A stretch of DNA of 40,679 bases from an uncultured Alphaproteobacteria bacterium (lineage in GTDB: Bacteria > Pseudomonadota > Alphaproteobacteria > Parvibaculales > Parvibaculaceae), in NCBI GenBank assembly GCA_903889655.1, contig CAISYL010000081.1, forward strand, positions 1 to 40,679. Reading direction: 5' to 3'. This document shows positions 25,350-32,352 of the stretch, in pieces; position 1 is the first letter of the stretch, and each line of letters starts with the position of its first letter. The notes beneath the pieces were generated by a model, which ran no database searches, was not told the origin of the DNA, and saw nothing but the letters and a program-made list of their open reading frames with translations. The position numbers and the translations under genes were made by a program.

Positions 25350-26309
25350 TCACCGGCGCGTCACACGCGCCGCCCGCCGGTCCTCGCGCGATATCGGCCT
25401 GCCGTCGGCAAATGTCGAAAAATACCACCAGTTCTCTGGAATTCCCGGCACCGCATTCCGTTCGAGCTCGGACAGGTACCATTTCATGAGTTCCAGAACC
25501 GCGGGGGAATGACCGGCATGCTGCACGAGAGCCGGTCCACCAACCGTCGTCACCTTCGTGAAGTGAAAAAAAGTCAGGAGATCGCCGCCCACTCTGATGT
25601 CGCCCCGACCGTCGATAGAGAGCGGTCGCTCGAAGAGATTCCAGCACGCCGCATTATAACCCTTGTGTCTGAGGATCGCGGTGTCCGGGAAAAAGGCGGG
25701 CGCCAGATCCCACCATTTCTGATCGACGAAAATTCCGCTCGCAATCTCGTCAAAACAGTAGGAGAGCAACCGGTCGCGCCACCATCGCGCCGCCCTGTTC
25801 CCTTCCGCGCTGTTCGACACGGCGAGAAAGCCGAGATTGAAAACACCGTGCTTGAGCGCGGATATTTCGTTGTCCTCGATGCTCACGCCATGCTGCGGTT
25901 CAAGAAGGTGCGGCGTCAGGACGACGGGATGCCGGGCGAGGAGATTCTCGACCTCCTGCATCGGCCGGAACAGGGCCGTATCGGGATCCAGATAGATGAC
26001 CCGCTCATAGCCCGCATCGAGGAACCGGCAAAGCGCCGGCCCTTTGACGGCGGTGCATAGTTCGACGACATCATGTGCGAAGGCCCAATCCCCGAAATTC
26101 TCGATGCCAAGTTCTGAATAGCGGACGATGCGAAAATTTTCGTCAGATCGTGGTTCGAAGAGCAGTCCCTCCGGCAGCTCATCCACCGACACGAGGACAA
26201 GGTCCCAGTCCGGATGGAATTCCTGCACCGTGGAAAACAACGTCCGCGCGCGGCTCAGATATGAATAGGTCGCGCTTGTAAAGCAGCATGTCCTCGGTGC
26301 GCTAGCCAT
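25350..26309 (-). CDS. GT8-like glycosyltransferase (GT-A fold)
   Basis: A 319-residue cytosolic glycosyltransferase. It begins with CCFTSATYSYLSRARTLFST, typical of GT-A enzymes that open with a nucleotide-sugar-binding strand, and carries the metal-binding DPD (108-110) in VIYLDPDTALF. Later segments (GVFNLGFLAVSN; FVDQKWWDLAP; FFHFTK) resemble the acceptor-side motifs of the GT8-like group found in polysaccharide clusters. ATG 26309 overlaps the stop of the sulfotransferase-GT4 fusion by 8 bases, so translation is coupled and the two likely build the same glycan. Another 17 codons upstream are open but lie inside the fusion gene. Sugar donor and acceptor are unknown. Confidence 0.82.
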   Translation of the reverse strand: MASAPRTCCFTSATYSYLSRARTLFSTVQEFHPDWDLVLVSVDELPEGLLFEPRSDENFRIVRYSELGIENFGDWAFAHDVVELCTAVKGPALCRFLDAGYERVIYLDPDTALFRPMQEVENLLARHPVVLTPHLLEPQHGVSIEDNEISALKHGVFNLGFLAVSNSAEGNRAARWWRDRLLSYCFDEIASGIFVDQKWWDLAPAFFPDTAILRHKGYNAACWNLFERPLSIDGRGDIRVGGDLLTFFHFTKVTTVGGPALVQHAGHSPAVLELMKWYLSELERNAVPGIPENWWYFSTFADGRPISREDRRAARVTRR

Positions 26310-28869
26310 CGATAGCCTTCTGAAAGTCCGGGAAGGAGAATGTGCCGGCGCCCGAGACAAGAACTGCCCGATGGCGGACGTCCGACAGATGGCCCGTCAA
26401 TGCGCTTCCTTCCTCGAAGAATGCTCCCAATTGCGCCACGTCGGAGAAAAGTATGGAAGAATCCGGCGCGTATAATTGCAAAACATGAGGAACATTGCCG
26501 CTTCCTTCCCGCCCGATGACAAAGCAGCCCGCCGCAATCGCCTCATGCGTGGCAAAGCTGAATGTCTCATGACAGAGGGACCAGGAAAGCACGGCGTCCA
26601 CCTCCTCCTGTTCCAGAGCATGGATCATGGCGTGACGGGAGAAGCCGCCGGCCAGCACCTCGACGTTACGTATGTAATCCGGACACCGTCCGGGCCCGTC
26701 AAGACCGAGCTGTATAAATTCATATCGGGCATCATTCATGAAGCGTTCGGCGAGGGACTGAAACACCGCCCAACCCTTGCTATAACTGCGCGCGCCAAGA
26801 TGCGCGATCCGATATCGATCTTTCTTCCCCCCGCGCGCCGCGATGCCGACGGGCACCAGAAAAGCGAGTGGCTGGACCTGGCCGGCGTCCACGGAAGATC
26901 CAACGATCTTCTGCAGCATGCCAAGGGACGCCGACGACGGCGCCAACAGCTTCGGCTGCAATTTGTCCAGCATAGCAGTCAGTCGGCCGGTATGGCGCGC
27001 GCGCGCCTTCCCATAGACGCAGATCCGGCAAGCGCCGGAAGTCATATGAGGGGCCCCGCAGAATTCAACGTCGTTTCGCAGAAGCGCGAAACTTGGACAC
27101 GCAAGGAAATAGTCATGCGCCCAGACGAAGCTCTGCGTGATACCGGCCGCGGCGGCGAGTTCGGCGATCGCCTCGGGTGCATGACCCGCCAGATGATGCA
27201 CCACGAGAATGGCTTGCCATCCCAGCCCCCGGTGACGACGAACCTCGCGCGATATCTGCTCCAGCGTAAGCGTACCCAGCAACGTTCCGTTGAGGCGCGC
27301 CTGGAAAACGGCATGACCTTCTGGAGCGAGGCGCAATCCCGGACTTGTCGGCGCCAGATGGAGATAGTTCGCCCGCTCGAATCGTGCCCGGTCGGCCTCG
27401 TCCGTGATGACGTTCTGAATGCCGCCTGTGGACACCCGATAATCCGTATGGCTGACCGCGATGATAATTGGCCCGTCGTCCATCTCACGAAACGCACAGG
27501 CGACCAGATCGTCGCTTGCATCCAGCAATCCGTCGTGATCGGGCGCAGCTTCATCGAACCGCGCCGCATCGAGTGTGGCACGGAAGAGATCCGCCGGCGG
27601 CGCCGGCATGCGGCGCTCGTCCCGCCCGAAAAGAAGATAATGCACGAAGGGATTGATCCCCGCGGCGGCGACATCGGGGTAACGCGCGAGATAGAACGAC
27701 GTATCGAACCACATGGAGGGATCGCGCCCCTCCCTCCATCCCGTCTCGCAAAAATGTCGCAGCGGGTCGACCATCGCCGCGCCGATGTCCGGATAGGTTT
27801 TCAGATAAAAGGCTGGATCGAATTCTCGCCTTGCCACTTTGCTGTCTGGCGATTCTTCGTCGACCCGGGAGAGTATCTGTTGCCCTGTTTCCGCGAAAGC
27901 GGGGATAACGGGCGCAACTGGATTATCGTTCGCATCCGGCTGCACAGCAGGCGGCATTGCCGCCCGACGGACCGTTGGCATGAGCGCCTTTAGCTCTTCA
28001 GCGATCGTGTCGAGCTCCCTCTCCGCCCGGCTGGTTTCAGACGATACTTCCAGCGAGCACAGAGCTGCAAAGGCCCGTGAACATAAGGCCCCGGTTGCGC
28101 TGACCGGTTCGTCGACCTCGCCCGCAGACCAATGGTGCCGCCTTCGGGGATCGAGAAAAGCGTCGATCTTCCTCTCGGAGTCGGTGTCGGATGGCGGAAG
28201 ACGAAAGCCCGTTCGAACTTGAATGGCGTCCAATGTTCCCCGCCAATCCCGAAGTAACCTGTCGTAGCTGACGACGGCACGTCTGAACGAACGCGTTGCG
28301 GCTTCCGATTCAAGCACGTGACGTAGCCACAGGCTCTCCGCATCGCGGCGTGTATGCCTCGCCGGCCAGAATTTGCGCCGCCGGGCGAGCGAATGAGCGA
28401 CTTCCGTTGGGTGACGAAAAAGGAGCACCGGGGAGACGTTCATATCGGCTGCCGTCAGTGCCTCACTGACAATCGTGGCAAAGCGGCACATCCGTGGGTC
28501 CTTTACGACAATAGGACCTGAGCCGGGATAATTGCCGATGACGGCGGCCGCGATGTCGCGGCGGATGACCTTCAACCTCTCGGGGGAAAGCCGCGAGAAA
28601 TCAAGCTCACTCGGATCGTGCCACGACGCACCGATCTCAAACAGAACTTGTTCTAGATAGACAACGAGATCGAAAGGTTCCCAATGGCCAGCCTCATTTC
28701 CATCCGCTGGTTCCATGAGACGTAGAGGCAACTGCGCGCCCGCGAGACTCAATACCCGCGTCAGGGCGCTCGTGCCGGACCGATGCATGCCGAGCACCAG
28801 CAGACACGTGCGGCGACGATCGATATCCAGAGATTTGGCGCGCAAAACGCTACTCAAGAGGGGAATCAC
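26302..28869 (-). CDS. Sulfotransferase - tandem repeat - GT4 glycosyltransferase fusion
   Basis: An 855-residue cytosolic protein made of three parts. Residues 20-245 form a sulfotransferase-type P-loop domain: PAPS 5'-phosphate loop VLGMHRSGTSAL (25-36) and the VVKDPRM and LLFRHPTEVAHSLARR segments. Residues about 350-417 hold two copies of a roughly 35-residue repeat (FDPAFYLKTYPDI...GWREGRDPS, then FDTSFYLARYPDV...YLLFGRDERR), a module often found beside glycosyltransferases in polysaccharide loci. Residues about 465-855 are a GT-B, family-4-like transferase with the donor-loop STGGIQN and ETFSFATHEAIAAGCFVIG late in the domain. It may transfer sulfate and a sugar onto one glycan chain. 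The ATG at 28869 is divergent from the second sulfotransferase. The domain calls are motif-based. Confidence 0.82.
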   Translation of the reverse strand: MIPLLSSVLRAKSLDIDRRRTCLLVLGMHRSGTSALTRVLSLAGAQLPLRLMEPADGNEAGHWEPFDLVVYLEQVLFEIGASWHDPSELDFSRLSPERLKVIRRDIAAAVIGNYPGSGPIVVKDPRMCRFATIVSEALTAADMNVSPVLLFRHPTEVAHSLARRRKFWPARHTRRDAESLWLRHVLESEAATRSFRRAVVSYDRLLRDWRGTLDAIQVRTGFRLPPSDTDSERKIDAFLDPRRRHHWSAGEVDEPVSATGALCSRAFAALCSLEVSSETSRAERELDTIAEELKALMPTVRRAAMPPAVQPDANDNPVAPVIPAFAETGQQILSRVDEESPDSKVARREFDPAFYLKTYPDIGAAMVDPLRHFCETGWREGRDPSMWFDTSFYLARYPDVAAAGINPFVHYLLFGRDERRMPAPPADLFRATLDAARFDEAAPDHDGLLDASDDLVACAFREMDDGPIIIAVSHTDYRVSTGGIQNVITDEADRARFERANYLHLAPTSPGLRLAPEGHAVFQARLNGTLLGTLTLEQISREVRRHRGLGWQAILVVHHLAGHAPEAIAELAAAAGITQSFVWAHDYFLACPSFALLRNDVEFCGAPHMTSGACRICVYGKARARHTGRLTAMLDKLQPKLLAPSSASLGMLQKIVGSSVDAGQVQPLAFLVPVGIAARGGKKDRYRIAHLGARSYSKGWAVFQSLAERFMNDARYEFIQLGLDGPGRCPDYIRNVEVLAGGFSRHAMIHALEQEEVDAVLSWSLCHETFSFATHEAIAAGCFVIGREGSGNVPHVLQLYAPDSSILFSDVAQLGAFFEEGSALTGHLSDVRHRAVLVSGAGTFSFPDFQKAIDG

Positions 28870-29021
28870 GACTGATCACACCACATTTTGGGTTGCAATG
28901 GATCGTCCCAGGCGAATCCCGTGTCCCCGGCGCGATTTTCTCTGCTATCAAACGGTACCGCAATACACTAATCCATCCCGCCCGACTTAAAATCACCGGA
29001 CACCCGGCTAACATTGAACCA

Positions 29022-29846
29022 ATGGCGCACGCTTCGACAAGGAAAACATTCATTCTGGGCCTCGGCGCGCAAAAAAGTGGGACCACATGGCTCTATAATT
29101 ATATCCAAAATAGTCCGTATGCAGACTGTGGTATGACCAAGGAATATCACATATGGGACGCGGTCTTCATTCCGGAATGCCGCGAGTTCGTGGTACAGCC
29201 GGACCAGGCGTCGGGTTCCGAACTCCTCGCTCTGAGACAGCGCCTCCAGAACGATCTCGCCCGATATGCGGACTACTTTTGCGACTTGCTTGGCAGCCAT
29301 GGCGTCTCAATCACCGCCGATATCACACCTGCCTATGCGGGCCTCGGTCCGGAACACCTGACCAGAATATATGAGGATTTCGAACGTCGCGGCGTGGATT
29401 GCAAGTTCATATTTCTCATGCGCGATCCTGTAGAGCGCTGCTGGAGCGCAACCCGGATGAAGAAGAGCGTGGAATCGGATCTCTACGGGAAACGGCCGGA
29501 TGAGGAAATCCTGCCGACCTATTTCAAGACGACGGATGCGAGGTTTCGGACAGACTATCGGCAAACCATCATGGCGCTCGATGCGGCCGTTCCATCCGAA
29601 AACGTCTACTACGGCATTTACGAAGAGATGATGCAGCCGGAACAGATCGAAGCATTGTCCCGTTTTATCGGCATTAAGCCAGATCCGAAATTCTCCGGCA
29701 GAATATTCAACGCATTTCCGAAGACCGAGGTTATCTCGATGGCCACGCGTCGAGCTGTCGCTGCGGAGTACCGCCACGTTTACGAATTTTGCGCCGTTCG
29801 CTTTCCCCGGACGCGAACGCTCTGGAACAGCATGGACTCGGTATGA
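29022..29846 (+). CDS. Sulfotransferase family protein
   Basis: A 274-residue PAPS-dependent sulfotransferase. The 5'-phosphosulfate loop is ILGLGAQKSGTTWLYNYI (11-28) and the 3'-phosphate motif is FLMRDPVERCWSA (131-143, with R134 and S142 as expected PAPS contacts). TADITPAY at 98-105 matches the heparan N-sulfotransferase-like group. No signal peptide or membrane segment is seen from ATG 29022; the frame is open to 28893, but nothing there looks coding. The DNA is clearly AT-richer than its neighbours (43-48% GC in the first lines against about 62% in the mdt genes), which suggests recent acquisition. The probable acceptor is the surface glycan made by neighbouring glycosyltransferases. 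Confidence 0.87.
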   Translation: MAHASTRKTFILGLGAQKSGTTWLYNYIQNSPYADCGMTKEYHIWDAVFIPECREFVVQPDQASGSELLALRQRLQNDLARYADYFCDLLGSHGVSITADITPAYAGLGPEHLTRIYEDFERRGVDCKFIFLMRDPVERCWSATRMKKSVESDLYGKRPDEEILPTYFKTTDARFRTDYRQTIMALDAAVPSENVYYGIYEEMMQPEQIEALSRFIGIKPDPKFSGRIFNAFPKTEVISMATRRAVAAEYRHVYEFCAVRFPRTRTLWNSMDSV

Positions 29847-29849
29847 TAT

Positions 29850-31223
29850 CTATTCACCGGCTCTCATCGCCGGCCGCCTTGCGCAAAGCAGGAGAACCAG
29901 CAGCACGAGGCTCGTCAGCAGTATCGGTGCATAGAGATAACGAAAGTCGCTCGCGATCGTTGTCGGCAGAAACGAGATGTACATGAGCGCCACGCCGCTC
30001 AGAATGATTTTTGCACCCCTGCGGAGCCCGGGCGGCAGTTCCACATAGACAAGAGCCATTGCCGCCGCGGCAGCCAATGCGAGCCAGAACGCGTGTCTGT
30101 AGATCGGCCACCCCATAACCGCAGATGCAATCTCAAGGATCAGAAGGCTGCGACTATTGCGCCCCTCCTGAAGACCGACGGCCGCGAAATAGGCGGGATT
30201 TCCCTCTATTCCAACGTGAACCGGCAACGTTTTCCCGATACCCCGCAATCCCAGAAGAGTCGCGTAGCTGGTTGCTCTGTGAGCGAGATACGATTGCGGA
30301 TGGTGCAGGATCAGTGAACCCCAGACCCGACGGATGCCGGCCGGTCCAATCGAGCGGAACCATTGCTGCACCGATGGCGCGCCGCCCAGCGTGTCAATGC
30401 GTGCCGCATCGTAGGTCGCGTGGAGGGCATCGAACACCTGGGGGGGGACCGGCTCAGCCAGCCCTTCGGGGACCGCTGGCTCGCGTGCCAGAATGCCGGC
30501 GATGTCGAAGATCATAATGGAGCGAAGCCCGACCGCGCTGGAACGGTCTTCCGCATCCCTGATCGTTTCACCCACCATTTGGCTCAGAAGAAAAGAGAGA
30601 CACAGAAACAAGGCAACGAGCAATCCTCGTGCGCGCCAGGAAAGAACGGAGAGCGGCAGAAGCAACAGCAACGGAGCCATGAAAATTCCCTGTTGCCGGA
30701 CAAGCAAGGCAAAACTCAAAACGGCACAGCAAAGCAGAGCCGCCGTTGCTCGACGCTTGTTCCGATAGACAATGGCGGCGGTGCCGAACGCGGCACCGGC
30801 GGCAAGAAGCGCCGCGAAAAGCACATCCTTCCATACGATGCCGGAGTAAATGGCTATCAGCGGATTCAACATCAGAAGCAAGGCAAGCCCCACCCGCCAC
30901 GACGCGACGTATGCCCCATCCGCGTCGTCTCGTGCCTCAGCCGCCATAAGCGATATGGCCGCCATCGCGCCATAGGAGAGCAAAGTGCACAGGCAGACGA
31001 ATATGGTCGTCGCCTGCCGTCCGCCGCCGAACCAGCGCAGAAGAGCCGACATGGCGGGAGGATTCCAGCTTATCGAAACCCCGGTCTTCGCTTCGTAGAG
31101 CTGGACACTGGTATCCATCGACATCTGCCCCGGAACATGCAGCGCTATGACGGCGATCGCCAGCATCATTCCGACGATACCTACAAGGCCGGCGGCCAGG
31201 CGCGGGGATAATGTGTGTGCCAT
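29850..31223 (-). CDS. Polytopic membrane protein, glycan-locus type, function unknown
   Basis: A 457-residue integral membrane protein with about 10-12 hydrophobic segments. A first helix (LAAGLVGIVGMMLAIAVIALHV) is followed by a loop MSMDTSVQLYEAKTG...WNPPAMSALL, reminiscent of GT-C transferases, in which an acidic residue in the first extracytoplasmic loop is catalytic. The large loop around LGGAPSVQQWFRSIGPAG could hold a substrate site. It may be a polyprenyl-phosphate-sugar-dependent glycosyltransferase or another polysaccharide-assembly protein; I do not recognise a named family with certainty. ATG 31223 is chosen over the adjacent TTG because GGGGGAG lies six bases upstream. It converges on the sulfotransferase gene with a 3-base gap and is divergent from the GT2 gene. 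Confidence 0.75.
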   Translation of the reverse strand: MAHTLSPRLAAGLVGIVGMMLAIAVIALHVPGQMSMDTSVQLYEAKTGVSISWNPPAMSALLRWFGGGRQATTIFVCLCTLLSYGAMAAISLMAAEARDDADGAYVASWRVGLALLLMLNPLIAIYSGIVWKDVLFAALLAAGAAFGTAAIVYRNKRRATAALLCCAVLSFALLVRQQGIFMAPLLLLLPLSVLSWRARGLLVALFLCLSFLLSQMVGETIRDAEDRSSAVGLRSIMIFDIAGILAREPAVPEGLAEPVPPQVFDALHATYDAARIDTLGGAPSVQQWFRSIGPAGIRRVWGSLILHHPQSYLAHRATSYATLLGLRGIGKTLPVHVGIEGNPAYFAAVGLQEGRNSRSLLILEIASAVMGWPIYRHAFWLALAAAAAMALVYVELPPGLRRGAKIILSGVALMYISFLPTTIASDFRYLYAPILLTSLVLLVLLLCARRPAMRAGE

Positions 31224-31253
31224 CAATATCTCCCCCTGAATTCCTGGACAACC

Positions 31254-31277
31254 GGCCCGGCTCCCGAAGACCGGGCC
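31254..31277. other. Inverted repeat in the divergent glycan-gene intergenic
   Basis: GGCCCGG (31254-31260) and CCGGGCC (31271-31277) are exact inverted copies around a 10-base loop, between the divergent membrane-protein and GT2 genes. There is no T-run. It could be an operator or an mRNA stem. Confidence 0.3.
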
Positions 31278-31302
31278 TCAACTCGCGGCCGCATCGATTT
31301 GA

Positions 31303-31330
31303 TTTACACGGAGCGCTTTTGAGGCACTAT
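31303..31330 (+). promoter_or_regulatory. Candidate promoter for the GT2 gene
   Basis: TTTACA (31303-31308), a 16-base spacer and CACTAT (31325-31330), 39 bases before the GT2 start. Recognised by eye in an otherwise GC-rich region. Confidence 0.35.
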
Positions 31331-31368
31331 GTGTCCTAACCATAGCGTCCTCCCGATACCTCAGCTAC

Positions 31369-32352
31369 ATGTTCAAAAACCTGAAAATTGCGGCCGTCAT
31401 TCCGTGCTACCGCGTAGCCGATCAGATATTGAATCTGATTCGCACCATCCCGCCGGAAGTGGATCGAATTTATTGCGTCGACGACGCCTGCCCCGCCGGT
31501 TCAGGCAAACTCGTGATGGAGCGATGCGCGGACCCCCGGATCAGTGTTTTGTTCAACGAGCGGAATTTGGGCGTTGGCGGTGCCGTGAAAGCCGGCTATG
31601 TCGCCGCGCGCGCGGACGATTGTGATATCGCCGTCAAGCTCGATGGTGACGGGCAGATGGACCCGCGGCTCATTCCGGCATTCCTGCTTCCCATCGCACT
31701 CGGTCAGGCCGATTACACCAAGGGCAATCGTTTTTTCCATATCGAAGATGTGAACGCCATGCCCGTATCGCGGCTTCTGGGCAATGCGGCTCTGACGTTT
31801 CTCGCAAAGTTTTCGACAGGCTATTGGAATGTCGCGGACCCGACCAACGGTTACACCGCCGCTCATCTGGGCGTGCTCGACCTTGCATCTCTCGAAAAGG
31901 TATCGAATGGATATTTCTTCGAGACGGATCTGCTGTTCCGTCTCAACATCGCGCGTTGCGTGGTCCGCGATATTCCCATGACGGCGAGATACGGAACCGA
32001 ACGATCGAGCCTTCGGATTCAAAACGTCCTGTGGCAATTCCTCGCCGGACACATCCGTAATTTCGTCAAGCGCATTCTGTATGGATATTTTCTGCGGGAC
32101 TTCAACATCGCATCGGCCCAGATTTTACTTGGCGTGCCGCTGTTGGCAGCGGGTTTCGCCTTTGGCATTTATCATTGGCGGCTCTCCATCATGACCGGCA
32201 CGCCGGCCACCGCCGGTACCGTGATGATCGCAGCACTTATGATCCTGACCGGCATCCAATTCTGTCTCGGTGCACTGAACTACGACATTACAAGCGTGCC
32301 GAAGGAACCGCTTCATCCTCTATTGCAAAAGCCTTCCCACGAGGAGCGTTGA
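31369..32352 (+). CDS. GT2 glycosyltransferase (dolichyl/polyprenyl-phosphate mannosyltransferase-like)
   Basis: A 327-residue family-2 transferase. The GT-A domain has AAVIPCYRVADQIL at the N-terminus, the nucleotide-binding VDDACPAGSG, NLGVGGAVKAGY, and the metal-binding DGDGQMDP near residue 100, as in DPM1-like polyprenol-phosphate glycosyltransferases. The acceptor-side DPTNGYTAAH and a C-terminal pair of hydrophobic helices (about 245-268 and 283-305) fit anchoring of a lipid-linked sugar enzyme such as GtrB. It probably makes a polyprenyl-phosphate sugar used by a GT-C type enzyme, for which the divergent membrane protein is an obvious candidate partner (inference). ATG 31369 was taken; upstream codons do not extend the domain. 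Confidence 0.9.
   Translation: MFKNLKIAAVIPCYRVADQILNLIRTIPPEVDRIYCVDDACPAGSGKLVMERCADPRISVLFNERNLGVGGAVKAGYVAARADDCDIAVKLDGDGQMDPRLIPAFLLPIALGQADYTKGNRFFHIEDVNAMPVSRLLGNAALTFLAKFSTGYWNVADPTNGYTAAHLGVLDLASLEKVSNGYFFETDLLFRLNIARCVVRDIPMTARYGTERSSLRIQNVLWQFLAGHIRNFVKRILYGYFLRDFNIASAQILLGVPLLAAGFAFGIYHWRLSIMTGTPATAGTVMIAALMILTGIQFCLGALNYDITSVPKEPLHPLLQKPSHEER

Follow-up and report, generated by a model that had tools for sequence, protein, structure and literature searches.

The 40,679-nucleotide contig CAISYL010000081.1 (GenBank assembly GCA_903889655.1), which comes from an uncultured alphaproteobacterium of the family Parvibaculaceae and is called the window here at its full length, contains a gene whose product appears to carry a sulfotransferase (ST) and a glycosyltransferase (GT). 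Are the two enzymes really parts of one protein, and would they act on the same glycan? The frame was open without a break across an N-terminal P-loop ST domain, a linker, two repeats of about 37 residues (REP), and a C-terminal GT-B domain with an EX7E motif, and no hydrophobic stretch that would indicate a membrane segment was found in the 855-residue fusion protein by hydropathy. An earlier note, made from the DNA alone, had described such a protein, and the open frame, the motifs, and the predicted folds bear this description out; at the level of sequence, the combination of ST and GT in one polypeptide is confirmed. Because of the gene linkage and the intact motifs, it is fairly likely that this predicted cytosolic two-enzyme protein belongs to a surface-polysaccharide cassette and would transfer sulfate and sugar on one surface glycan.

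The 5′-phosphosulfate-binding loop (5′-PSB) and the 3′-phosphate-binding motif RxPx5S (3′-PB) define the binding site of the sulfate donor 3′-phosphoadenosine 5′-phosphosulfate (PAPS). In an alignment of 25 ST sequences including that of the window, GMHRSGTS (residues 27–34), KDPR (residues 123–126), and R152-x-P154-x5-S160 were invariant, as were G44, N58, G61, E64, L76, L161, and R164, and the PAPS donor site of the window ST looks intact. The score of the domain against the Pfam family PF13469 (Sulfotransfer_3) was 20.1 bits (E = 8.6e-4), which falls short of the 27 bits of the curated cut-off, and therefore the domain is not filed as a member of PF13469 and is called ST-like by fold and motif. 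A homologue of the same ST type in locus L033, with 42% identity to the window ST, exceeded the cut-off with 29.4 bits. The earlier note had held that a lack of profile support or of PAPS-binding residues would speak against an ST; the former applies to the curated cut-off, and the PAPS-site residues are all present. Searching the Protein Data Bank (PDB) with a profile of the 25-row alignment retrieved mainly sulfotransferases, with a best E value of 0.0042 and some unrelated chains at higher E values. Foldseek matched the fusion model to the ST domains of 4gox (E = 1.9e-5) and 4gbm (E = 3.1e-5) with a probability of 1.00, using the whole model and not the ST alone, with a TM-score to the target of only 0.49–0.51 and a root-mean-square deviation over 10. 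It is conceivable that the domain is no longer an ST and that its P-loop fold was kept for structure or for another donor: the window ST has a long branch of 1.38 in the ST tree, a five-residue insert following the 3′-PB motif, and the weak Pfam score. The window ST keeps every position that the other 24 ST rows share without exception, and such a loss is judged very improbable. From the motifs, the fold, and the PAPS genes described below, we infer that sulfate would be transferred from PAPS.

The model of the fusion protein was built from a balanced 45-row alignment including 23 ST rows, each of which leaves 21–45 residues on REP and 13–24 on the GT region, and had a mean pLDDT of 83.3 and a pTM of 0.63. 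A PDB sequence search with the whole fusion protein gave no matches; profile searches did better. VIA, whose rows spanned residues 464–855 only and are uninformative on the ST, indicated a GT-B fold, with Z scores of 21.9 to both PglA (8dqd; 322 residues aligned, 3.8 Å) and MshA (331 residues, 3.8 Å). The EX7E motif is known for its role in GT4-type retaining GT-B enzymes, and its residues E768 and E776, together with C604, C614, and C617, were invariant in 56 sequences. A Pfam match of the Glycos_transf_1 type was not found in the window protein, and 8 of the 56 family members matched PF00534 at E = 1e-3 or better. The GT4 label proposed earlier is thus retained as GT4-type on the basis of the predicted fold and the motif, without a Pfam match in this protein. 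Structure prediction, which the earlier note had recommended, yielded a model that resembles solved sulfotransferases and GT4-type enzymes.

To place the protein among its relatives, 84,980 genomes were scanned with patterns from the GT-domain alignment, and the best 80 of 89 GT relatives were kept as loci (designated L; genomes are designated G), which are not independent of each other, though their arrangements differ. In 79 of the 80 loci, the next gene after the GT gene was a homologue of the gene that follows the fusion gene in the window, with an aligned start −72 to +32 nucleotides from the GT stop. The sole exception was L143, where the contig end cuts off the GT gene. The gene chooser used for these neighbour clusters was crude, and the N-termini of L096, L110, L118, L124, and L131 look overlong. 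In the window, the TAG stop of the fusion gene overlaps the likely ATG of this partner gene by 8 nucleotides, and the two are therefore probably translated together. The partner alignment showed a mean column identity of 55% over 44 rows, in which D125 was invariant and P126 and D127 were nearly so. The partner model had a pLDDT of 89.6, and LgtC and glycogenin were among the top Foldseek matches along with other GT-A enzymes, with a TM-score to the target of about 0.4–0.6. No Pfam or NCBIfam family matched the window partner at E = 1 or better, and since a GT8 model match is missing, the protein is called GT8-like only. The comparison exposes a strongly conserved GT-A partner family whose window copy is matched by no Pfam or NCBIfam model here. 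Short GTs with a partner and without repeats or ST occurred in L146–L148 (a Gilliamella metagenome-assembled genome and two bee-associated Bartonella records), near rml-type genes in L147 and L148 as judged by eye. That the GTs of these loci are closely related across two proteobacterial classes points to transfer or to a mixed bin.

An ST homologue was present in 46 of the 80 GT loci and formed a separate gene in 43 of them. It was divergent near the GT gene in most Phenylobacterium loci, lay upstream with the same orientation in L138 and L143, and was downstream in L099, L116, L121, and L135. L092 encodes an ST-GT fusion, and in L111 and L142 the ST is attached to the C-terminal end of the partner, indicating that fusions of the ST with members of the GT pair have taken different forms. 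By taxon label, 32 of 34 Caulobacterales loci and 14 of 46 loci elsewhere had an ST; the latter count is generous because some of these records cluster with Phenylobacterium in the tree. The draft state of the window genome (294 contigs), together with L138 and L143, where ST and REP-GT are adjacent, overlapping genes, would suit an assembly error that joined two neighbouring genes. The frame that remains open through ST, linker, REP, and GT, the homology over each domain, and the separate ST-GT fusion in L092 argue against a chance or assembly join, to which we attach hardly any probability.

No other ST-REP-GT fusion in one frame was found in 60 other genomes or in 385 other genomes (overlapping sets). 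The one ST-GT fusion among the 80 loci, the 943-residue protein of L092, is joined via a coiled coil and has no detected repeat. The same GT is preceded by repeats in most relatives and by an ST in the window and L092; in 5 of the 56 members scanned (L071, L072, L073, L080, and L081), the place of the repeats is taken by an RgpF (rhamnan synthesis) domain, and a methyltransferase precedes the GT in one (L089). Fusions of ST to other glycosyltransferases were commoner: L033 and L187 encode ST-GT2-GT-B proteins, L179, L185, L186, and L188 combine ST and GT2, and the window's own genome (G000) has a second fusion, an ST-GT2 protein of 895 residues, on contig C2 (L039). No description of an ST-GT fusion was found in the single literature collection searched. 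Two loci of the window's genus, L034 (15227–17778) and L035 (6425–10368), contain ST genes with a repeat at the end that overlap with a gene for REP-GT, an arrangement that is the unfused counterpart of the window architecture. A short ST piece in a 146-residue frame on contig C79 of the window genome (14060–14287) is perhaps a remnant. The only phage record matched was Pseudomonas phage Y4 (OQ572406.1, 24935–25585), with an ST-like stretch of 33% identity over residues 22–245.

The two REP copies occupy residues ~349–385 and ~387–424. No Pfam model for REP was among the matches of the window proteins or of the 56 GT-family proteins scanned. The repeats were present in 64 of the 80 GT-family genes and occur in proteins bearing glycosyltransferase domains, in agreement with the association that the earlier note had pointed out. 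A scan of 386 genomes of the class, which scored at most two candidates per genome and in which absence is therefore soft, showed them in about 30 by row count. In the model, the window linker forms helices at residues 258–275 and 279–302, followed by disorder at residues 304–337. Its score in a home-made coil test was 0.70, equalled by 7 of 200 shuffles, and the comparison proteins of L092 and L185 scored 1.02 (1 of 200 shuffles) and 1.45 (0 of 200), respectively. The ST proteins of the window's genus in L032, L033, L034, and L035 did not score above shuffles, and neither the model nor the coil score indicated a long coiled coil in the window linker. On a plasmid of Azospirillum sp. B510 (L183, 10682–15859), a 1,725-residue frame matches the repeat section of the GT profile ~18 times in a row, and type I secretion genes are found on the same stretch.

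The neighbourhood of the fusion gene was delimited by the recurrence of its members. Homologues of the membrane protein encoded at 29850–31226, which has no Pfam or NCBIfam match, were found in 16 of the 80 loci, and those of the GT2 encoded at 31369–32352, whose NCBIfam AglJ/PpgS match is below the cut-off, in 8 loci at 44–54% identity. BLAST homologues of the second ST were found in two loci, L111 and L142, in both of which the gene is divergent beside the GT gene as in the window; the divergent second ST of the earlier note is thus upheld, also by its PF13469 score. Among six flanking window genes, those for PhyH, lipoprotein, GH5, MFS, and RND adaptor proteins recurred in none of the 80 loci and that for an esterase in one. 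Because the membrane protein and GT2 genes recur and the flanks do not, the cassette probably extends over about 25350–32352 and comprises the genes for the partner, the fusion, the second ST, the membrane protein, and the GT2 (Table 1). L072, L080, and L081 combine, within a 15-kb locus, the genes for GT, partner, membrane protein, and GT2 with one for an ST of the same type and one more ST-like gene. The GT-A partner in nearly all loci, the wider cassette, and the usual state of the ST as a separate gene go beyond what had been noted earlier.

Table 1. Features of the putative cassette in the window, in order of position.
Feature	Position	Strand	Remarks
Partner glycosyltransferase, GT-A fold, GT8-like	25350..26309	(-)	DPD motif; listed ORF 25350-26360 from TTG; ATG likelier
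ST-REP-GT fusion protein	26302..28869	(-)	855 aa, single open frame, GTG start
GT-B glycosyltransferase domain, aa 464-855	26305..27480	(-)	EX7E E768/E776; C604/C614/C617 invariant; C591, K698 nearly so
Tandem FDP-x-FYL...YPD repeats, aa 349-424	27598..27825	(-)	Predicted helical
Sulfotransferase domain, aa 20-270 (or ~20-250)	28060..28812	(-)	5′-PSB GMHRSGTS, KDPR, 3′-PB R152xP154x5S160, invariant E64
Second sulfotransferase, divergent	29022..29846	(+)	P-loop GAQKSGTTW; PF13469 36.6 bits; likely start ATG 29022, not TTG 28893
Membrane protein, putatively GT-C-like by context	29850..31226	(-)	About ten hydrophobic segments by hydropathy
GT2, putatively polyprenyl-phosphate-sugar-synthase type	31369..32352	(+)	Pfam GT2 E 4e-13; two C-terminal hydrophobic segments by hydropathy

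For sulfate and sugar transfer on one surface glycan, the following course can be proposed. The C-terminal GT-B domain, with its translationally coupled GT-A partner, would add a sugar to a lipid-linked chain, and the N-terminal domain, judging from its intact motifs and fold, would move sulfate from PAPS to a sugar of the same chain. The repeat pair, at a position taken in relatives by a coiled coil, an RgpF domain, or extra repeats, may hold the glycan as it grows or partner proteins. Further sulfate and sugar would come from the second ST, the membrane protein, and the GT2, the latter two probably working at the opposite face of the membrane.

The gene context of the relatives is consistent with polysaccharide synthesis. 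In L092, genes for ST-coil-GT, the partner, an ABC-2 permease (Wzm-like), four dTDP-rhamnose-type proteins, and an ABC ATPase with Wzt_C, the C-terminal carbohydrate-binding domain of the exporter protein Wzt, form a head-to-tail run. On Citrobacter and Pandoraea plasmids, the partner gene lies near those for an ABC permease, a Wzt_C ATPase, and a methyltransferase protein, which in Pandoraea has a long coil; on Ruegeria and Cereibacter plasmids, the ST gene lies <8 kb from genes annotated as ABC permease, sugar transporter, and ABC ATPase. The 80 loci gave 13 Wzt_Cb matches, most of them resembling the ABC ATPases of type I systems, and a permease match accompanied them in L092 and L107 only. 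The window genome encodes an OPX-type protein and, on contig C242, a Wzt-like ATPase of 257 residues beside a permease. With regard to sulfate supply, an adenosine 5′-phosphosulfate (APS) kinase was found in all 27 genomes of the genus, including that of the window, in which cysQ-cysD-cysN on contig C91 and a CysH with CC and CxxC on contig C229 were recognized by eye. Matches to PF01507 mix CysD with CysH, and the match in L158 is CysD by eye. The window CysH is presumably APS-reducing and would then leave PAPS for transfer. Of the sulfated surface glycan that the earlier note had suggested, the surface polysaccharide gains from this context in relatives, and the sulfation is deduced from the motifs, the fold, and the PAPS genes.

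Besides the low PF13469 score, several observations weigh against this interpretation. PAPS supply was rejected as proof of sulfation for being non-specific: APS kinase occurs in 27 of 27 genomes of the genus versus 8 of 27 for the window's ST type, and the PAPS-supply genes therefore count as permissive evidence. No polysaccharide exporter was found among the 17 window proteins scanned, and a search of the window genome (scored 100% complete) for Wzt_C gave no matches. Caulobacterales is the label of 32 of the 46 ST-bearing loci. No ST was found in 34 of the 80 loci, 15 of which are stretches under 12 kb; L117 and L120, GT relatives from the window's own genus, have no ST beside the GT, and an ST-profile search of their genomes (G024 and G008) gave no match. 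A type I secretion system is located downstream in many Phenylobacterium loci, which would suit protein glycosylation.

According to that alternative, the product of the cassette is a sulfated glycan attached to a surface protein of the RTX kind that is exported by type I secretion. HlyD homologues in 24 and RTX-type frames in 5 of the 80 loci are in line with it, as are type I secretion genes ~3 kb from the ST-GT fusion in Paracoccus albus and ~6 kb from the partner in Azospirillum B510. However, 23 of the 24 HlyD loci belong to Caulobacteraceae or, once (L113), have an ST with the same sequence as one from Phenylobacterium, the window yielded no RTX frame, and L092 lies within its run of ABC-exporter and dTDP-rhamnose genes. 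Protein glycosylation is thus considered quite unlikely.

A second alternative assigns the ST the role of a chain terminator: sulfate at the non-reducing end would stop polymerisation, like methyl-phosphate or Kdo in O antigens exported by ABC systems, with the linker as a spacer or ruler and the GT as the polymerase or part of it. The ST–coiled coil–GT relatives share the layout of Klebsiella O7 ORF6 as outlined in PMC11231755, and L089 has a methyltransferase and a coil before the same GT family. Six genomes outside the genus with an ST-GT fusion (G394, G242, G209, G163, G127, and G419, the last being that of L092) had one Wzt_C match each. Its distance to the fusion was <5 kb in G127, G163, and G209, and in G419 it followed the fusion by 6.4 kb, which puts four of the six within 7 kb, an arrangement like that of the O-antigen terminators of PMC11231755 and WbdD. 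In G127, frames for a Wzm-like protein (by eye), a Wzt with Wzt_C, and an ST-coil-GT2 protein overlap, the latter two by 4 nucleotides; past these frames the record is masked. On the other hand, Wzt_C was far from the fusion in G394 and G242, and it was absent from G386, from the genome of L089 (G420), from the P. albus plasmid with an ST-GT2 fusion (the plasmid only was searched), and from all 5 further genomes tested within the window's genus, in which 7 others carry the same ST type. In G138 and G208, Wzt_C was present away from an unfused ST, with no GT detected. Likewise at odds with termination are the missing Wzt_C in the window genome, the window linker without a long coil, and the coil scores of L032–L035. 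On balance, a chain terminator seems rather improbable. In a broader form, sulfate might act as a terminal cap that ends ABC-exported chains across the alphaproteobacterial ST-GT family, the ST being the terminator and the coil the ruler, an idea that we put forward tentatively and regard as unlikely. The same doubt applies to its further parts, namely that the carbohydrate-binding domain of Wzt would read the sulfated end and that the window protein would be a derived form with repeats in place of the ruler and another exporter. Because the window genome has no Wzt_C and the linker no long coil, the cap idea fits the ST-coil-GT relatives better than the window. On contig C31 of G127, a 25,156-residue open frame from 140821 crosses masked N (6,500 of 11,001 bases) and was not taken as a giant gene.

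In a quick ST tree, the window ST, on its long branch, joined L092 (SH-aLRT 94) and then L033 (83), which would suit a single origin of the window and L092 fusions. The GT tree did not join the window and L092, and a constraint holding them together was just not rejected (AU p = 0.051). The window GT grouped with Acetobacteraceae and Devosia forms, not with L117 and L120 of its own genus. Patchy presence and the mismatch between the trees suggest that the history of ST and GT includes transfer between lineages.

Known systems share parts of this architecture. The N-terminal domain of Paracoccus albus WP_271073705.1, annotated only as a glycosyltransferase, is an ST of the same family (profile iE = 1e-76) joined to GT modules; unlike the window protein, it has two GT2 stretches and not REP plus a GT-B domain with a GT-A partner. 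NDST, the heparan N-deacetylase/N-sulfotransferase, is of animal origin. As presented in part of PMC10864358, it likewise unites two glycan-modifying activities including an ST in one protein, but it pairs the ST with a deacetylase instead of a glycosyltransferase. Klebsiella pneumoniae O7 ORF6 is described in PMC11231755 as one protein with an N-terminal methyltransferase/kinase, a coiled coil, and two C-terminal GT2 domains, and ORF6 and Escherichia coli WbdD are polymerase/terminator proteins of ABC-dependent O-antigen synthesis according to the relevant sections of PMC11231755 and PMC3482155. In L092, L185, L186, L188, and G127, a modifying enzyme is similarly N-terminal and a GT C-terminal, with an ST instead of the methyltransferase/kinase, and L092 has exporter and rml-type genes alongside, like these systems as summarized there. 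The window protein differs from ORF6 and WbdD, as characterized in those sections, in its ST, its repeats in place of a coiled coil, and its genome without Wzt_C. The word sulfotransferase does not occur in the main text of PMC11231755.

In the capsule clusters of Cobetia marina KMM 1449 and Vibrio sp. KMM 8419, as reported in parts of PMC11766843 and PMC11641403, STs, GTs, an ABC exporter, and PAPS and rml genes serve one sulfated polysaccharide; unlike in the window, ST and GT appear there as separate genes, and the organisms belong to other bacterial classes. The synechan xss cluster of Synechocystis, in the account given in PMC8205485, resembles the window in its two STs of distinct subfamilies and several GTs, which serve one exopolysaccharide in Synechocystis, but encodes them as separate genes and uses the Wzx/Wzy pathway. 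That 2021 paper states, in its pertinent section, that sulfated polysaccharide had been reported in no bacteria except cyanobacteria. The sulfated capsules of Cobetia and Vibrio were published in 2024–2025 (PMC11766843 and PMC11641403, as far as their cited sections go), and a 2024 review refers, in the section concerned, to six genera of bacteria (PMC11625862).

The fusion protein may therefore help to make a sulfated bacterial coat, of a kind seldom described. The conserved GT pair, repeatedly joined to an ST, would be a marker for sulfated glycans across Alphaproteobacteria, and the ST-GT proteins make it testable whether sulfate can end a polysaccharide chain.

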